DNA of 64,000 nucleotides from a virus. Location of the stretch: IMG/VR virus record IMGVR_UViG_3300027736_000001, positions 1-64,000 of that record. One strand, written 5' to 3'. Numbering within the stretch: the stretch's first letter is position 1; the number at the start of each line of letters is the position of its first letter. Made by a program: the position numbers and the translations under genes. This document shows positions 14,480-23,486 of this stretch, piece by piece. The notes under the pieces are model-generated. The model made no database searches. It was given only the letters and a program-made list of their open reading frames with translations, and had not been told where the DNA came from.

Positions 14480-14493
14480 CTAATAGTTGTTAG
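14480..14493. repeat. Palindrome site 2: CTAATA-GT-TGTTAG
   Basis: One mismatch to the consensus. It holds the stop codon of the 278-residue gene, as site 1 does for DUF3310. Confidence 0.7.
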
Positions 14494-15326
14494 GTCTGCT
14501 CATCCAACACTAGGACAAACACTTCATCATTGACACGACACCCTACGTTGGATAGGAATGTCTCGGCCTCTACCAATTTCAACATACCCAACTTACTACG
14601 CATCTCGTGAGGGAGCGTATTATCATCGTAGAGTTGTACATTGTCACGCACTTTAACCAAGTATTTACCCGAATCTTTTATGACTAGGGCAACCTCTTCC
14701 TTCTCAAAGCGTTGGCGTATTGTCTCAATGGTGAGCATCTCGCCTTGCATTTCTTCGACCTTCTTCGCCGCTTTGAGAATGGGTGCGCTAACCGACGGGG
14801 GTTGTAACTCTATGTGTGCCATGAAATGTGCAAGCCCCGAACCTTTGAGGTAGTCTAGTGCCGCCCTTTGGATGGTGTTCTCCTCTTGGGCCTTGGTTCT
14901 CTCCCGCTTCCATATCTGCTCGGTAAATACATCTGTCGCCGCCTTCGCCGCCTTAGTGATGCGCTCGTCTGGCTTCAAACGAAAGAACATCTTCTTGGCT
15001 TTGAGTATGGCCTTCTCTGCATCTTCTGTGTGATACGTATCCCCGCGCAGTCGCCCCTTGGCGATGCGGTCGTTGCATATGCCGATCACATGAGTTCCAC
15101 CCCGATACGTTCGCGTGATTTCGCCTAGCTTCTCGCCCTGCTCAAACACATCGAACCCCATAGCTATTCTTGTGCCGTTAAAGCTAGTGTTCACGTCCTT
15201 TACTCGAAACGTCCACAGCGGGTTCAGTGTTGCCAGTCGATACACCACTTGGTTGATGGTGCCGCTAACCTCGTCCACCTTGCCATGCTTGTGTGTGTCA
15301 ATGTTGATTAGTTCCATTGTCTTCAT
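14490..15326 (-). CDS. Hypothetical phage protein of the MoxR-VWA block
   Basis: A 278-residue soluble protein. The N-terminal half is beta-rich (TLNPLWTFRVKDVNTSFNGT; GTHVIGICNDRIAKGRLRGD) and the middle is a basic helical stretch. AAGGAGTATTAG precedes the ATG. It is the last gene of the MoxR-VWA cluster. I recognise no family. Its stop codon is inside a palindrome site, suggesting shared regulation. Confidence 0.7.
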   Translation of the reverse strand: MKTMELINIDTHKHGKVDEVSGTINQVVYRLATLNPLWTFRVKDVNTSFNGTRIAMGFDVFEQGEKLGEITRTYRGGTHVIGICNDRIAKGRLRGDTYHTEDAEKAILKAKKMFFRLKPDERITKAAKAATDVFTEQIWKRERTKAQEENTIQRAALDYLKGSGLAHFMAHIELQPPSVSAPILKAAKKVEEMQGEMLTIETIRQRFEKEEVALVIKDSGKYLVKVRDNVQLYDDNTLPHEMRSKLGMLKLVEAETFLSNVGCRVNDEVFVLVLDEQT

Positions 15327-15336
15327 CTAATACTCC

Positions 15337-16191
15337 TTACCATTCAAACTTATTGATAATTGCGTCCACCTTGGACTTCAATTCACTGCGCGTGTCGGCA
15401 TCTTCCTTGATGCTCTCCATGTCCGCGTTCAACATGGCTACCTCTACTTGCCTACGGGCTTCCTCCAACTTCGGGTCGTTGGTGATGTTCAACTTGGTCA
15501 GAAGAGAACAGAGTTCCAAAGGATTGGTAAGCAACGTGTCGTGGTAACGCTTCTTGCCGTCATCCCCCTCAACATCAGTCAACTTCTCCGACATTGCCAC
15601 CAACGTCTTATGCAGACGCTCCCACGGCTCGCGCATTGCCTCTGCCAACTTGCGGTCTTGCTGTGACATAAACTCGCTGCGCATCTCCTCCAGGTCATAC
15701 GCAGGAATGTCTAAGCGAAAGTCACCAGCCTCGGGCACAGGCTTGACTGTGCGGCGAAAGCCAAACTTCAATCTAACATCTGTTAGTTCGGGGTAGTCCT
15801 CTGCCTTGTACAGCCCCTGCAACGCAGTCGGTGCCTCGGCAACCAAGCGCGGGTACTCAATGTAGAAGTTGTTGCACATCATGTTGAACGTCTGCTCGAA
15901 CCCATTCATGGTCTGCTTGTAGTCCATGAACAACGCAGTCGGTAACATGCGCTCACCCTTGTCGGCCCAGGGCAATGTGTGCTTGTTGTGATACAGGCGC
16001 ACTCGTGCGGCAAAGTCTGATATGTCTTTGCGTAGGCTCGTACCTGCAAACAAGTTCTTCTTGGTCTGCGATGCCCCACGCACCGCCCCCGCATCTGAGT
16101 TCACCTTGTCCGTGATCTCTCGGTCGATCTTGGACGCAGGCCACACACTGATGTTCAATTCCACTAACACTGCTGATGCACTGATACTCAT
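15337..16191 (-). CDS. MoxR-VWA-associated protein, possibly DUF3150-like
   Basis: 284 residues. It begins with a strand-rich ELNISVWPASKIDREITDKV, then a mostly helical body with charged segments. The start and its location near a MoxR ATPase and a VWA protein recall DUF3150-type proteins encoded beside such pairs in mobile elements; this match is from memory and unverified. A palindrome site lies inside the gene at 15773-15786. Good Shine-Dalgarno AAGGAG. Probably a partner of the ATPase module. Confidence 0.6.
   Translation of the reverse strand: MSISASAVLVELNISVWPASKIDREITDKVNSDAGAVRGASQTKKNLFAGTSLRKDISDFAARVRLYHNKHTLPWADKGERMLPTALFMDYKQTMNGFEQTFNMMCNNFYIEYPRLVAEAPTALQGLYKAEDYPELTDVRLKFGFRRTVKPVPEAGDFRLDIPAYDLEEMRSEFMSQQDRKLAEAMREPWERLHKTLVAMSEKLTDVEGDDGKKRYHDTLLTNPLELCSLLTKLNITNDPKLEEARRQVEVAMLNADMESIKEDADTRSELKSKVDAIINKFEW
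15773..15786. repeat. Palindrome site 3: CTAACA-TC-TGTTAG (inside a gene)
   Basis: Exact copy within the 284-residue gene, read there as codons for Leu-Thr-Asp-Val-Arg. Confidence 0.8.
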
Positions 16192-16213
16192 TTCATTTCT
16201 CCTTGGTTAAAAA

Positions 16214-16414
16214 TTACTTCTCTTTCGCTAACTCAAGCATCTGTGAGGCGGCTTTGAGGGTGAGCTCTCCAGCTATCACCTCTGTGCCAAATCTTGCCCC
16301 CGCCTTGACCCGCACAATGGCCCACACTCCGTCTCCGTTGTCGCGTAGCCGTAGTTCTTCCTTCGGAATCTGCGGCAGTCTTGTGTCAGTCCATCCGTAC
16401 TTGTATCTGCTCAT
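16214..16414 (-). CDS. Hypothetical phage protein
   Basis: 66 residues from ATG 16414 (MSRYKYGWTDTRLPQIP); GGAG lies 6 bp upstream. It has a beta-rich centre (GVWAIVRVKAGARFGTEVI). It lies 2 bp below the 83-residue gene. Function unknown. Confidence 0.65.
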   Translation of the reverse strand: MSRYKYGWTDTRLPQIPKEELRLRDNGDGVWAIVRVKAGARFGTEVIAGELTLKAASQMLELAKEK

Positions 16415-16416
16415 GT

Positions 16417-16668
16417 TCACTCCTTCACGGGCTTACCCGCCAGCTTCGACATCTGATACTGCGCGTTAGATATGACTTTCATGGTGAATTGTCTGTCTAA
16501 CGGAAATACGTGATAGGTGTAATCGGTGTCGATACCACTCTTCTCCTTCTCTTCTTTGGTGCGGTACTTCTCCTCGAAAGCCTCGGCCTTTGCCAGAATC
16601 TCAGCAAGTCGTATTGCATCCTCGGTCGGCAACACCACACTGCGATACCCCAAATCAATAACTACCAT
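16417..16668 (-). CDS. Hypothetical phage protein
   Basis: 83 residues from ATG 16668 (MVVIDLGYRSVVLPTEDAIRLAEIL); AGGAG precedes it. The Shine-Dalgarno runs into the end of palindrome site 4, so any factor on that site would cover the ribosome site. The opening strand-turn-helix layout looks like a small alpha/beta protein. No family recognised. Confidence 0.7.
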   Translation of the reverse strand: MVVIDLGYRSVVLPTEDAIRLAEILAKAEAFEEKYRTKEEKEKSGIDTDYTYHVFPLDRQFTMKVISNAQYQMSKLAGKPVKE

Positions 16669-16678
16669 GTTCGTTCTC

Positions 16679-16692
16679 CTAACAGTTGTTAG
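16679..16692. repeat. Palindrome site 4: CTAACA-GT-TGTTAG
   Basis: Exact copy between the VWA gene and the 83-residue gene. Its end overlaps the AGGAG ribosome site of the latter. Confidence 0.85.
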
Positions 16693-16702
16693 ATACCAGA
16701 TT

Positions 16703-17890
16703 TCAATCTCGAATATGAATCGTCTTGCCATTTGGCGCAACATCATCATTACCCCCCACAATCACCCACAACAGAGGTGCAGTCCACTCGTTACCCCAGT
16801 CGCTACCAACGTACCCATCGGTGAGCATGATGATGCACTCAGGCACGATGTGCTTGTCCTTGAGATATGTGGATACGCAACTAGGTGAAGTACCTCCACC
16901 GCCCGCTGGCCTGGTTGACTGCACGATGCTAGATACAGTAGCGCCTGTATAGGTCTCATGCCCCGCCACCTCGCCGTCCCAGTAGAGCAAGTCCACTACC
17001 TCGGGGCTTACTTCCTCTGCGATACCCTTAACCTCGGAGAGAAACTCGGCGAGTTCCTTCCCGCCCACCGAACCGGACGTGTCAACACCGATCACCAAGT
17101 GACCCACCTTCTCACCTATCAGCGTAGGCATGTACACGCCTGTGGATAAGAATCTGCGGTTGACCCTGCGCCATGAGGACTTGTCCTTGGCACTGCACGT
17201 TGACTTCACAAACTCACGCAACACTTCGCGCCAATCGACTTTGGGCTCCATCAAGCCTTCAAGTTCGCGGTCAAGGCCACCTGTATTAGTTCCCGCTTTC
17301 TTGGCGGAGATGAGTCCTTGGCGTATCGCTTGGTCAATCTCTCGTGCGAGTACCTTCTTCTCTTCCTCGGTCATGTCCTTGGCACCATCCCAATCGTGGA
17401 TGTCGAACCCATCGCCCTCGCCTTCGCCGTCATCCTCCTCCTTGAGTATGTCGAACACTTGCTTGGCATTCATGCCTCGGAATCGCTCGTCCACCAAGCC
17501 CATCACCTTGCCCTTGTTCGGCCCATCGGTATAGCGTGGCATGGCAATCACTGTCTCGCTCGGGTCCAAGTCCTTGAGCATGAGGTTAATCACGTAGTCA
17601 CAAGCGGAATTCGCCAAGTGGCGGTTCTCGTCATGCAACTTGCGCCATGTAGTGAGATGCCGATACATCTTGTGCGCGTTCTCATGCGCCACCACAAACG
17701 CCAACTCGGGGTCGCGTAGCTTCTTCACAAACTCGCGCCCATACCGCTCGTCTCGCCCATTGGTACAGGCGGTCGGGATGTTGTCATCCACTCTAGTACG
17801 CCCAACCATCATGATGCCGCTCAGCAATGCGAATTTGGAATTGCGCATCAAACTGATCTTTGCCTTCTGCACTTTGCGTTCTTCTAACAT
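16703..17890 (-). CDS. Metallopeptidase-like plus VWA domain protein (DUF2201 type)
   Basis: 395 residues in two parts. The N-terminal part has a zincin motif HENAH (69-73) inside a helix. An acidic linker follows (EEDDGEGEGDG, about 151-161). The C-terminal VWA domain has an intact MIDAS: DTSGS (270-274), a downstream Thr in GGGGTSP and Asp in LTDG. This matches the DUF2201 metallopeptidase/VWA arrangement, whose members pair with MoxR-type AAA+ ATPases; such an ATPase is encoded about 0.5 kb upstream in the same operon. It probably recognises or cleaves a target protein when remodelled by the ATPase. The start codon lies in palindrome site 5. Confidence 0.85.
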   Translation of the reverse strand: MLEERKVQKAKISLMRNSKFALLSGIMMVGRTRVDDNIPTACTNGRDERYGREFVKKLRDPELAFVVAHENAHKMYRHLTTWRKLHDENRHLANSACDYVINLMLKDLDPSETVIAMPRYTDGPNKGKVMGLVDERFRGMNAKQVFDILKEEDDGEGEGDGFDIHDWDGAKDMTEEEKKVLAREIDQAIRQGLISAKKAGTNTGGLDRELEGLMEPKVDWREVLREFVKSTCSAKDKSSWRRVNRRFLSTGVYMPTLIGEKVGHLVIGVDTSGSVGGKELAEFLSEVKGIAEEVSPEVVDLLYWDGEVAGHETYTGATVSSIVQSTRPAGGGGTSPSCVSTYLKDKHIVPECIIMLTDGYVGSDWGNEWTAPLLWVIVGGNDDVAPNGKTIHIRD

Positions 17891-17897
17891 TTGTTAG
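17884..17897. repeat. Palindrome site 5 on the VWA start codon
   Basis: Exact CTAACA-TT-TGTTAG. Read on the minus strand it is GGAG then CTAACAAATGTTAG, with the ATG of the VWA gene inside. Confidence 0.9.
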
Positions 17898-18190
17898 CTC
17901 CTTTGTTTCACTTCAGTTTCTTCAATACTTATAAGCATCTTCAATGCCGATGCCATCTGCTCTATGTCGTGTGTCTCAAGCAACACGTTTCTTTTGGAAG
18001 TGTCCCCTGATACATGCTCCCGCTTCAACAACACAAATCGATACTCTGGTAGGTCTTGCGATTCAAACATCCGGCGCTCCAACTCCACTCGGTAGTGGTA
18101 ATTGCTGTTCTTGAGTTTCTTCTCCAGATACTCAATCTCCTCCATCCTCAACGGCCAAGCCACCTTGCTGTATACCGCCGCATATAACAT
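17894..18190 (-). CDS. Hypothetical protein between MoxR and VWA genes
   Basis: A 98-residue charged helical protein (MEEIEYLEKKLKNSNYHYRVELERR). Starts Met-Leu with its ATG inside palindrome site 6. It is co-encoded with the MoxR and VWA genes, so perhaps an adaptor. No family recognised. Confidence 0.65.
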   Translation of the reverse strand: MLYAAVYSKVAWPLRMEEIEYLEKKLKNSNYHYRVELERRMFESQDLPEYRFVLLKREHVSGDTSKRNVLLETHDIEQMASALKMLISIEETEVKQRS

Positions 18191-18197
18191 TTGTTAG
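18184..18197. repeat. Palindrome site 6: ATAACA-TT-TGTTAG
   Basis: One mismatch at the outer base. It covers the start codon of the 98-residue gene. Confidence 0.8.
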
Positions 18198-18433
18198 CCT
18201 CCTTCCTCTGGTATCAGTAGCTTCACCATGTTGTTTAACTCCTCTGGGGTGTCAAACTCATGGACGATCGTGAACATACCCGCACCCACGCCGCTCTGCT
18301 CCAAGCGGTACAGCGCATACTTGGATACACCCTTGTCGATGTACCCTCCTACTGTGTACCCTGCGTCTCGCAGTCGCTTGGAGGTGCGGGTATGCGACAC
18401 CCATCCGTTGTCTACTTCAAGGTCTCGAGTCAC
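18194..18433 (-). CDS. Hypothetical protein overlapping the MoxR gene
   Basis: 79 residues with a GTG start whose GTGA overlaps the MoxR stop; no in-frame ATG suits better. Alpha/beta pattern (DAGYTVGGYIDKGVSKYALYRL; FTIVHEFDTPEELNNMVKLL). Translation is probably coupled to the ATPase. Function unknown. Confidence 0.65.
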   Translation of the reverse strand: MTRDLEVDNGWVSHTRTSKRLRDAGYTVGGYIDKGVSKYALYRLEQSGVGAGMFTIVHEFDTPEELNNMVKLLIPEEGG

Positions 18434-19494
18434 AGCAGGTCTTGGTTCTTTGCTACCCAGTTGCTGAACGCCTGACAGCTAAACGCAATGGCTTGCTTGT
18501 CTCGGTTCTTGGCAATGTTGATAGCGAACACGGCTTGCCACTCGGCATCGAACCGCTCCACATACTCCATGAATGGGGTGATGCTTTGCTTGTCGATACG
18601 TGCAATGGCACCGAACACAACGATCGCACATGCGCCAGGGCTTGTGGGTACCTTGGTGTGCTTAGGGTCTCGGATGGTCGCCTCCCATGTCGGCAATTGA
18701 TCTGAGAATTCAATGTACGCTTGCATGTCACGCGCACCACTCTCACCGATAGCACCTGTCAACGCCGCAATCACCGCATCGGTGTCGTTCTCTCTGCGAG
18801 TTCTAACAATGTTAGATGCCGTCTCCAATGAGCGTGGGGTTACGAACGCCGTCATAGTCTTGCGGGGGTTGAAGATGTAGGGGTTGTCGGCTTGCCCACC
18901 ATCGGTGTAGCTTGCAAGTACGTGGGGAAAACGATTCACCCATGCAATCACCTCGGGCTCGATACCCTTGTTGATAGCCCACTCAATCCACTGCTCGGCA
19001 TCGGGCTTGGCTACGTTGAGAGACACAAGGCGGTTCAAGCTATGCGCCTTCAACACATCGCCCACGCCATCGGTCGTTAGATTACCTGTCAAGAAGATGG
19101 GGCTACGATTGTCAATGGTGATGTCACCAAGGCGAGGGTTCGCCTTCTCAAGCATTGGATGTAGCATGTTCTTCACAGGGTCGGCACCTTTTGAGTACTC
19201 GTCCAGCATGATGACGACAGGCTTGCCCTCGTGCAGTTTGAACCGCGCATTGGGGTAGTAGCGGGTGGTCTTGGTCTCGTGGTCGATCACAGGCATCGCA
19301 ATGTCGCCCAAATCCATATTGGGTACGTCAATATACGCATAGTCGTACCCCAAGTCCCCAGCGATCGACTCCAGCAGGGATGACTTGCCGATGCCGGGCT
19401 CACCTCGTAACATGAACCTCGTGGTCGGGTTCGTTTTGATAAGCGTTGCCGCTTGCTTCAAGGTCACAGTTTTTCCAAAAGTTACTTCTGACAT
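18430..19494 (-). CDS. MoxR-type AAA+ ATPase
   Basis: 354 residues from ATG 19494, with GGAG upstream. Walker A is GEPGIGKSS (31-39), Walker B is VVIMLDEY (93-100), and sensor 1 is TGNLTTDG. The compact MoxR/CbbQ-like layout continues with VTPRSLETASNIV. MoxR ATPases work with VWA proteins to remodel or mature target complexes, and this one shares an operon with a VWA-metallopeptidase. It is the first gene below a consensus promoter with a palindrome in the leader. Confidence 0.9.
   Translation of the reverse strand: MSEVTFGKTVTLKQAATLIKTNPTTRFMLRGEPGIGKSSLLESIAGDLGYDYAYIDVPNMDLGDIAMPVIDHETKTTRYYPNARFKLHEGKPVVIMLDEYSKGADPVKNMLHPMLEKANPRLGDITIDNRSPIFLTGNLTTDGVGDVLKAHSLNRLVSLNVAKPDAEQWIEWAINKGIEPEVIAWVNRFPHVLASYTDGGQADNPYIFNPRKTMTAFVTPRSLETASNIVRTRRENDTDAVIAALTGAIGESGARDMQAYIEFSDQLPTWEATIRDPKHTKVPTSPGACAIVVFGAIARIDKQSITPFMEYVERFDAEWQAVFAINIAKNRDKQAIAFSCQAFSNWVAKNQDLL
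18803..18815. repeat. Palindrome variant inside MoxR gene: CTAACA-A-TGTTAG
   Basis: 13-bp form with a one-base centre, read as codons for Ser-Asn-Ile-Val-Arg. Confidence 0.6.
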
Positions 19495-19577: not shown

Positions 19578-19606
19578 ATTATACCACAATGTTATGGATA
19601 TGTCAA
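19578..19606 (-). promoter_or_regulatory. Consensus sigma70 promoter for the MoxR-VWA operon
   Basis: Minus strand: TTGACA (19601-19606), 17-bp spacer, TATAAT (19578-19583): a perfect match at ideal spacing. The end of the spacer and the -10 (TTGTGGTATAATATA) are shared with the promoter at 22.9 kb. Confidence 0.9.
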
Positions 19607-19615
19607 GTTTATAGG

Positions 19616-20674
19616 TCACACTATCTCTGATATCCACTTGGCGTACTTCGGGTTGGGAGTCTTCCCCACCTCCAGCGCCACATGCTCCAGCACCTCCTCG
19701 GCGTGGTACTTCAATATGGCTTCGTCCACCATGAGCATCCACGCATTCACATCGACCCACCCATCCATCTCGTAGTCGTGCAGTACCCACTCATTGTTGT
19801 GAGTGGCCCTACTCTCCCAATACCCTTCTACCAATAACGCTATCGCACCTCGGTAGAAGTTCTCGTGCCGCACATCCTCGGGCTGTCCGTTTACGATCGT
19901 GTCGGTGAACGTTTTCATGTTCTCCTCATACTTGCGTATCGCATCGCGGTAATCTTGCTTTTGCACCTCCGTTGGGTTGAAGAAATACAGCTTTGTCGGC
20001 TTGCCAAAGATGCAGTCGGTCTTCTCGCGGTTCAGTGCTTTGGCATCGTTGTATGCGCTGTCCATCACACCAAACATATTCACCGCCTCCTGTATGCCAA
20101 AATTGATTACATTGAACCTTCGCTCGTATGCCCTGCCCTGATGTAACACACGCTCCTCTTGGCGTAGGTTTATGAACCCACTCAGATACTTGCGGAATTC
20201 AGAGTAGCGCGATCTAACATTTGTTAGAGCCTTGCGATTTGCTTTGTACCCATAAAGCGTTTCGTGCTCCAGCACTCTCCATGCGTTAGTCCCCTCATGG
20301 CCCATCGTCAGCGTGTTGTCGCCTGTCATGGTGTAGTATCGGTTGCCCAATCGCAAGATACTGCTCCCGTTTTTCCCATGCGCAGGTATGCTTAACACTT
20401 GTTGGATGAATTGGTGCGATGACACACTCGCCCACCCATTGGTGCGTAGCACGATCTTGCCGTTGGCCTTGTATGTGATGACCGGAGTCTTATACAAAAC
20501 AAACTCCACATCATCGCCGTTCATGCGCACAGAGTAGCTGTCCACATCCTTGCGATTACCCAAGGGTCGAATCTCGGGCACTCGTCCCCTGATTGGTAGA
20601 GCGGTGTCGTGTACCTGTTTGGCGTCCGCATAGTCTGTCACCCTCGGTACTCTCTTCACTGTTGCGTATCCCAT
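19616..20674 (-). CDS. Hypothetical 352-residue phage protein
   Basis: A soluble protein. The N-terminal third is beta-rich (VDSYSVRMNGDDVEFVLYKTPVI; KIVLRTNGWASVSSHQFI) and the rest is helical and charged, ending NPKYAKWISEIV. Shine-Dalgarno GGGGG. It contains an internal palindrome (20214-20227). No family recognised. It is the last gene of the 22.9 kb operon and stops just above the MoxR promoter. Confidence 0.7.
   Translation of the reverse strand: MGYATVKRVPRVTDYADAKQVHDTALPIRGRVPEIRPLGNRKDVDSYSVRMNGDDVEFVLYKTPVITYKANGKIVLRTNGWASVSSHQFIQQVLSIPAHGKNGSSILRLGNRYYTMTGDNTLTMGHEGTNAWRVLEHETLYGYKANRKALTNVRSRYSEFRKYLSGFINLRQEERVLHQGRAYERRFNVINFGIQEAVNMFGVMDSAYNDAKALNREKTDCIFGKPTKLYFFNPTEVQKQDYRDAIRKYEENMKTFTDTIVNGQPEDVRHENFYRGAIALLVEGYWESRATHNNEWVLHDYEMDGWVDVNAWMLMVDEAILKYHAEEVLEHVALEVGKTPNPKYAKWISEIV
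20214..20227. repeat. Palindrome site 8: CTAACA-TT-TGTTAG (inside a gene)
   Basis: Exact copy inside the 352-residue gene, read as Leu-Thr-Asn-Val-Arg codons, nearly the same peptide as site 3. Confidence 0.8.
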
Positions 20675-22918: not shown

Positions 22919-22947
22919 ATTATACCACAAAGTTACAGACTTGTCAA
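22919..22947 (-). promoter_or_regulatory. Consensus sigma70 promoter for the 22.8-19.6 kb operon
   Basis: Minus strand: TTGACA (22942-22947), 17-bp spacer, TATAAT (22919-22924). The spacer end and -10 match the MoxR promoter almost base for base. Confidence 0.9.
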
Positions 22948-23422: not shown

Positions 23423-23456
23423 AAAAAAGCCCGACCTAACAAATGTTAGATCGGGC
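23423..23456 (-). terminator. Intrinsic terminator whose stem contains a palindrome site
   Basis: On the minus strand, GCCCGA pairs with TCGGGC around an entire CTAACA..TGTTAG core, giving a stem of about 12 bp with one mismatch, then TTTTTT. It is the second of two tandem terminators after the 23.5-24.0 kb gene. Confidence 0.8.
23436..23449. repeat. Palindrome site 14 inside a terminator stem
   Basis: Exact CTAACA-AA-TGTTAG forming the upper stem of the terminator at 23423-23456. Confidence 0.9.
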
Positions 23457-23460
23457 AAAC

Positions 23461-23486
23461 AAAAAAGCCCCGCATGAGCGGGGCTT
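23461..23486 (-). terminator. Intrinsic terminator, first of tandem pair
   Basis: Stem AAGCCCCGC/GCGGGGCTT with a four-base loop, then TTTTTT on the minus strand, about 20 bp after the stop at 23506. Confidence 0.95.

Follow-up and report, generated by a model that had tools for sequence, protein, structure and literature searches.

A MoxR ATPase, a HExxH-VWA protein and a DUF3150-like protein as a candidate remodelling machine of phages and conjugative plasmids

The first 64,000 nucleotides of the IMG/VR virus record IMGVR_UViG_3300027736_000001 (the window, that is, the whole stretch of DNA analysed here) encode a MoxR-type AAA+ ATPase and a protein in which a HExxH metallopeptidase-like domain is fused to a VWA domain. 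What might this aquatic phage do with such a pair of proteins? A preliminary description, made from the DNA letters, had placed both in an early operon together with a possibly DUF3150-like protein, and had proposed that they disable or reprogram a host complex or counter a defence system. We propose that the MoxR, HExxH-VWA and DUF3150-like proteins form one ternary remodelling machine that would be produced early and act during the establishment or recombination of mobile elements, a reading to which we give an even chance of being correct. The genes of this trio and their promoter are located as follows (aa, amino acids).

19578-19606, minus strand: sigma-70 extended -10 promoter (TTGACA, 17 bases, TATAAT, with TG ahead of the -10); 12/12 consensus matches plus the TG
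18430-19494, minus strand: MoxR-type AAA+ ATPase, 354 aa (PHROG 1297, Pfam AAA, Walker A/B, sensor 1); a relative of gp24 of phage N4
16703-17890, minus strand: HExxH metallopeptidase-like domain fused to VWA (DUF2201_N + DUF2201), 395 aa, assigned by Pfam and motifs; a relative of N4 gp25
15337-16191, minus strand: DUF3150-like third component, 284 aa, assigned by a profile-profile match to true PF11348 members and by synteny in phages and plasmids

The ATPase possesses intact Walker A (GEPGIGKS) and Walker B (VIMLDE) motifs and the conserved sensor-1 GN, and its gene is linked to a VWA gene, a combination of features that fits a MoxR-type AAA+ protein. It matches PHROG 1297 ('ATPase') with an E-value of 4e-48 across 346 aa, scores above the cut-off against Pfam AAA (E 1e-5) and just under it against AAA_5 (E 4e-4), and has relatives in 323 of 50,697 phage records searched by tblastn. 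Its partner matches DUF2201_N (E 2e-29) and the VWA-like DUF2201 (E 5e-16), and both domains (PF13203 and PF09967) pass the curated cut-offs, with 103 bits against 23.2 and 59 bits against 26.4. The HENAH sequence at residue 69 and the metal-ion-dependent adhesion site (MIDAS) DTSGS at residue 270 are intact, so that the domain content and motifs of both proteins agree with what the preliminary description had read in them. Across 22 diverse homologues of the VWA protein, the five residues H69, E70, H73, H78 and D98 show little or no variation; the last of them could plausibly serve as a third metal ligand, and the motifs suggest a putative protease. The VWA protein also matches PHROG 1314 (E 2e-86), whose label 'HNH endonuclease' is contradicted by the domain content (DUF2201_N plus VWA) and was rejected. 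This name is widespread on the HExxH-VWA family in phage records and is apparently a propagated mislabel.

The preliminary description had called the third protein possibly DUF3150-like, and this assignment stands in a qualified form. A direct search gave no match to Pfam PF11348 at an E-value of 1, the curated cut-off is not reached, and only two among 23 relatives touch it, with 0.0015 as the best E-value, but a profile-profile comparison with true PF11348 members gave a probability of 97%, with an E-value of 1e-10 over 226 columns. The window protein is therefore classed as DUF3150-like and not as a member of PF11348. Its structural model is mainly helical (predicted local distance difference test, pLDDT, 81); no significant match was found in the PDB, and structural matches were limited to DUF3150-like and uncharacterised viral proteins.

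All these genes are read from the minus strand, in the order MoxR, two small open reading frames (ORFs), HExxH-VWA, two small ORFs, DUF3150-like and a 278-aa protein. Close spacing and a single upstream promoter support the view, already taken in the preliminary description, that the trio probably belongs to one operon. This promoter, which lies 84 bases ahead of the MoxR start codon, combines a perfect -35, a perfect -10, a 17-base spacer and the TG of an extended -10; there are only two perfect extended -10 sites across the 64 kb. Among 74 distinct homologous upstream regions, 72 reach a promoter score of at least 10/12; the 215 control regions, which precede the VWA, DUF3150 and 14490 genes, contain no site that attains this value. 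The same strand encodes a primase/helicase, a helicase, an exonuclease and DNA polymerase A, while the terminase, portal, head and tail genes lie on the opposite strand. The natural reading is that host RNA polymerase would transcribe the trio early, and the host sigma-70 type of the promoter is in keeping with the early operon that had been predicted. The second perfect extended -10 promoter (22919-22947, minus strand), which resembles that of the MoxR operon and like it ends in TTGTGGTATAAT, has a series of small early genes downstream; two strong terminator-like hairpins with T runs, arranged in tandem (23429-23486, minus strand), lie upstream of this series.

The MoxR-VWA pair is not an oddity of the window phage, since it corresponds to the N4 gp24/gp25 core pair and relatives of the VWA protein occur in 673 of the 50,697 phage records. 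That phages carry such a pair is already known: gp24/gp25 are among the core genes of N4-like phages (PMC4193335, PMC7650795), a pair of this type was noted in roseophages in 2009 (PMC2784036), and Iyer et al. (2021) described the version found in jumbo phages as a MoxR-vWA chaperone pair that includes a metallopeptidase domain at the N terminus, and proposed for it a role in virion assembly (PMC7824862). N4 gp24 (AAA+) and gp25 (vWFA) resemble the window pair in their families, adjacency, order and position in an early/middle region; they differ by the absence of a detectable DUF3150 and share 20-24% identity with the window proteins, N4 being no close relative of the window phage. The jumbo-phage pair has the same domain architecture as that of the window, and a third component was not described there.

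Is the DUF3150-like protein a true third member of this system? Two sets of 80 phage loci each were fetched, one with MoxR alone as the query and the other with DUF3150 alone. In the 70 MoxR-fetched loci with at least 4.5 kb of downstream sequence, DUF3150 and VWA genes were both found in 70/70, and the 40 DUF3150-fetched loci with 4.5 kb upstream contained MoxR and VWA in 40/40. The VWA gene is present in 119/119 related loci having MoxR and DUF3150, and the small genes between the three are variable. The profile searches and the neighbourhood comparison recovered the expected domains, with the pair adjacent in every relative inspected, an outcome that does not refute the preliminary description. 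In Synechococcus phage MinM2, the order is MoxR-DUF3150-VWA. Because synteny inside one clade is, taken alone, weak evidence for a third partner, the search was widened beyond the phage clade.

When genomes were scanned with an alignment of DUF3150 as the query, 49 loci were retrieved, to which one viral locus was added. All three genes are present in 44 of these 50 loci (42 in the order MoxR-DUF3150-VWA and two in the order MoxR-VWA-DUF3150), and in five of the remaining six the position of the missing gene lies beyond the end of a short contig. The hosts of the genome-scan loci comprise Burkholderiales and Chitinophagaceae as well as metagenome-assembled contigs of Cloacimonadota and Armatimonadota; the trio itself was found in Burkholderiales plasmids, Cloacimonadota and Bacteroidota. 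Over phages, plasmids and several phyla it is kept at 25-35% identity, with a gene order that changes and a gene set that is constant. Chance adjacency is not credible, since DUF2201_N was detected in just 14 of 398 sampled Pseudomonadota genomes. Relatives of the DUF3150 query occur in 2035 of 72,556 plasmid records. The plasmid operons of Burkholderiales and of Rhodovastum contain families identical to the three of the window and differ in their tight MoxR-DUF3150-VWA order and in their context, some adjoining PRTRC or type IV secretion genes; we found no published description of them. On two Burkholderiales plasmids (L156 and L158), the PRTRC (ThiF-type) genes lie a few kb from the trio.

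The association recurs in a diverged branch. Among five true PF11348 members inspected, a CobT-like VWA gene, whose product has an N-terminal HExxH, lies beside 5/5 and a CobS-like AAA+ gene beside 4/5; near the remaining one, the stretch examined yielded no AAA+ gene. This diverged trio of a CobS-like AAA+ protein, a true DUF3150 and a HExxH-VWA protein is present, with its genes near one another, on IncC-like (a plasmid having an IncC-type ssb-bet-exo region), IncHI2, Xanthomonas, Geoalkalibacter and pCAR1 (IncP-7) plasmids, often next to genes for SSB, Bet or RecT and an exonuclease; a lambda-type exonuclease and YqaJ are among the neighbours. Both branches retain the HExxH and the MIDAS, and their VWA profiles align over the HExxH region (E 3e-6). 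On pCAR1, ORF101-103 are the AAA+, DUF3150 and HExxH-VWA genes; they belong to a single strongly transcribed unit (ORF100-109), and the cassette is conserved in R478, Rts1, SXT and R391, with a role in transfer suggested by the authors (PMC2642839). It matches the window in its three components and differs in that its AAA+ protein is CobS-like and its VWA protein CobT-like; the published account names the MoxR and VWA proteins and not the middle one. Two further genes were seen in this branch, namely a ribonucleoside triphosphate reductase gene after the trio in pGSUB1 (L258:9578-11746) and a YfaE-like gene near the trio of an IncC-like plasmid (L255:12957-13181).

Among cellular systems, NorQ/NorD, CbbQ/CbbO and RavA/ViaA share with the window trio the logic of a MoxR AAA+ protein with a VWA partner, and the trio may share their finger-in-pore mechanism; unlike it they have defined cellular clients. 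Neither a HExxH domain nor a DUF3150 protein is known in these three systems. The MoxR-vWA ternary conflict systems (Kaur et al. 2020) likewise add to MoxR and VWA a conserved third protein; there, it is VMAP, iSTAND, FtsH-type or beta-propeller, the third component of the window being DUF3150-like, and the systems belong to multicellular bacteria. DUF3150 is not mentioned anywhere in the literature that we searched, a limited collection, in which neither the ternary association nor its distribution among phages and conjugative plasmids seems to have been described.

How would such a machine operate? After entry of the element, the three proteins would be synthesized early from the host-type promoter. 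In recent NorQ-NorD structures, the AAA+ pore encloses the finger of the VWA protein, whose linker undergoes a twist, an arrangement that the authors presume to be general for AAA+/VWA pairs (PMC13036017). By analogy, the pore of a MoxR hexamer may grip a finger of the VWA protein and twist it at the expense of ATP, while the mostly helical DUF3150 protein, which we infer to be an adaptor within the same complex, would recruit or clamp the substrate. The N-terminal HExxH...D domain could then cut or hold the protein exposed by the motor. The target would be a nucleoprotein or host complex that is important at the stage when the DNA of a mobile element becomes established or recombines; as far as the sequence tells, it may be a complex by which the element itself recombines or replicates, or equally a defence complex of the host. 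A function common to plasmids and phages is probably one that incoming DNA elements need. We put forward tentatively the more specific picture in which an as yet unnamed machine, built from an AAA+ motor, a DUF3150 adaptor and a HExxH-VWA effector and carried by phages and thousands of large conjugative plasmids, remodels or cleaves a protein complex of the recipient cell and so lets the incoming DNA establish itself or recombine.

In the MoxR and VWA trees, ternary members and binary ones, which lack DUF3150, cluster without forming one clade; the MoxR tree requires at least two changes, and many of the deep branches are weak or long. Several observations weigh against a ternary machine of this kind. 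DUF3150 is undetectable in N4, SBP1, PA5oct, S-TIM5, RHph_TM3_14A, pSYSA and pREL1, and the chromosomal DUF2201 loci that were inspected also lack it. Since N4, SBP1, PA5oct, S-TIM5 and RHph_TM3_14A have the pair without a detectable DUF3150, this protein is not obligatory for the MoxR-VWA pair. One ICE-like contig (L209) carries DUF3150 with neither of the other two genes nearby. The VWA proteins of one Variovorax plasmid and of one chromosomal relative lack the HExxH, from which it follows that catalysis may not always be needed. Finally, recombination-gene neighbours are absent at several loci, and the link to DNA recombination is one of neighbourhood.

The nearest competing explanation holds that the proteins serve counter-defence or host takeover and, in the early phase of infection or conjugation, take apart or cleave a complex that the host uses for defence or housekeeping. 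This would suit the early-type promoter, the ssb-bet-exo neighbourhood and the occurrence of the trio in phages and conjugative plasmids alike, two classes of elements that meet bacterial defences. For ssb-bet-exo, the title of a 2020 paper by Roy et al. (cited in PMC11541004) reports that IncC and SXT/R391 elements repair CRISPR-Cas cuts during conjugation. However, no target was found; PADLOC, which has no model for the trio, recognised no known defence system and gave weak P-loop matches for MoxR alone and none for the other trio proteins. That nearly all N4-like phages carry the pair is more in keeping with a core function than with a variable weapon, and a study of anti-defence genes in plasmid leading regions mentions neither VWA nor DUF3150 (PMC11541004). 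We consider this explanation rather unlikely; the plasmid versions fit a general mobile-element role at least as well as the host-complex disabling or counter-defence that had been proposed from the sequence.

According to the proposal by Iyer et al. (2021), made with the two-tailed virus of Acidianus as an analogy, the proteins would act as a chaperone of virion assembly, with a protease for the processing of structural proteins. It was published for the same two-domain pair (PMC7824862), the record of the PA5oct ATPase carries a note of detection by mass spectrometry, as do the structural proteins of that record, and in some N4-like roseophages a second structural module lies near gp24/gp25 (PMC4193335). 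The window genes, however, lie on the strand of the replication genes, opposite the head and tail genes and behind a host-type promoter, and N4 gp24/gp25 are middle genes (PMC4193335). A purely virion-assembly role is disfavoured by the trio on conjugative plasmids, since these make no virions, and we regard it as unlikely.

A role in metal insertion like that of CobS/CobT or NorQ/NorD, in which the machine matures a metalloenzyme of the element, would account for the CobS-like and CobT-like profiles of the plasmid branch and for the ribonucleotide reductase gene and YfaE near the trio on one plasmid each, but no common metalloenzyme partner was seen, and we judge such a role very unlikely. 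Two specific candidates were tried separately and rejected: a cobaltochelatase CobNST, CobN (PF02514) being absent from 9/9 elements tested with positive controls, and ribonucleotide reductase as the client, the large-subunit profile used being absent from eight elements. Least probable of all is that DUF3150 is a mere neighbour kept by clade synteny and that the MoxR-VWA pair is the working unit, as the binary pairs of N4-like phages, jumbo phages and chromosomes might suggest, given that the trio persists in phages, in plasmids and in several phyla, where identity is 25-35% and the gene order varies, and that it is met again in the diverged branch with CobS/CobT-like proteins.

The remaining genes of the locus are listed below.

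18194-18433, minus strand: small ORF, 79 aa, not conserved; 26/119 related loci, no Pfam or PHROG family
17894-18190, minus strand: small ORF, 98 aa, not conserved; 43/119 related loci, no Pfam or PHROG family
16417-16761, minus strand: small ORF, 114 aa; PHROG 23585 (weak match), 62/119 related loci
16214-16420, minus strand: small ORF, 68 aa, rare; 3/119 related loci
14490-15326, minus strand: 278-aa protein specific to this clade, encoded next after the trio; directly after DUF3150 in 117/119 related loci

The 278-aa product was not seen outside this phage clade; its confident model (pLDDT 94) combines helical and beta elements, and the PDB search gave no significant match. Just upstream of the MoxR promoter, a 352-aa protein is encoded at 19616-20674 (minus strand) and is kept in 84/119 related loci.

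The N4-like pair has been listed since at least 2009 as conserved and without an assigned role, and no phenotype for gp24/gp25 in N4 was found in the literature searched. The link to DUF3150 and to the plasmid AAA+-DUF3150-VWA cassette gathers several orphan genes into a single problem that is open to experiment, and the laboratory phage N4 and pCAR1, a plasmid from the environment, are systems at hand for it. Together, these relationships point to a so far unstudied mobile-element machine and not to a weapon of phages alone.

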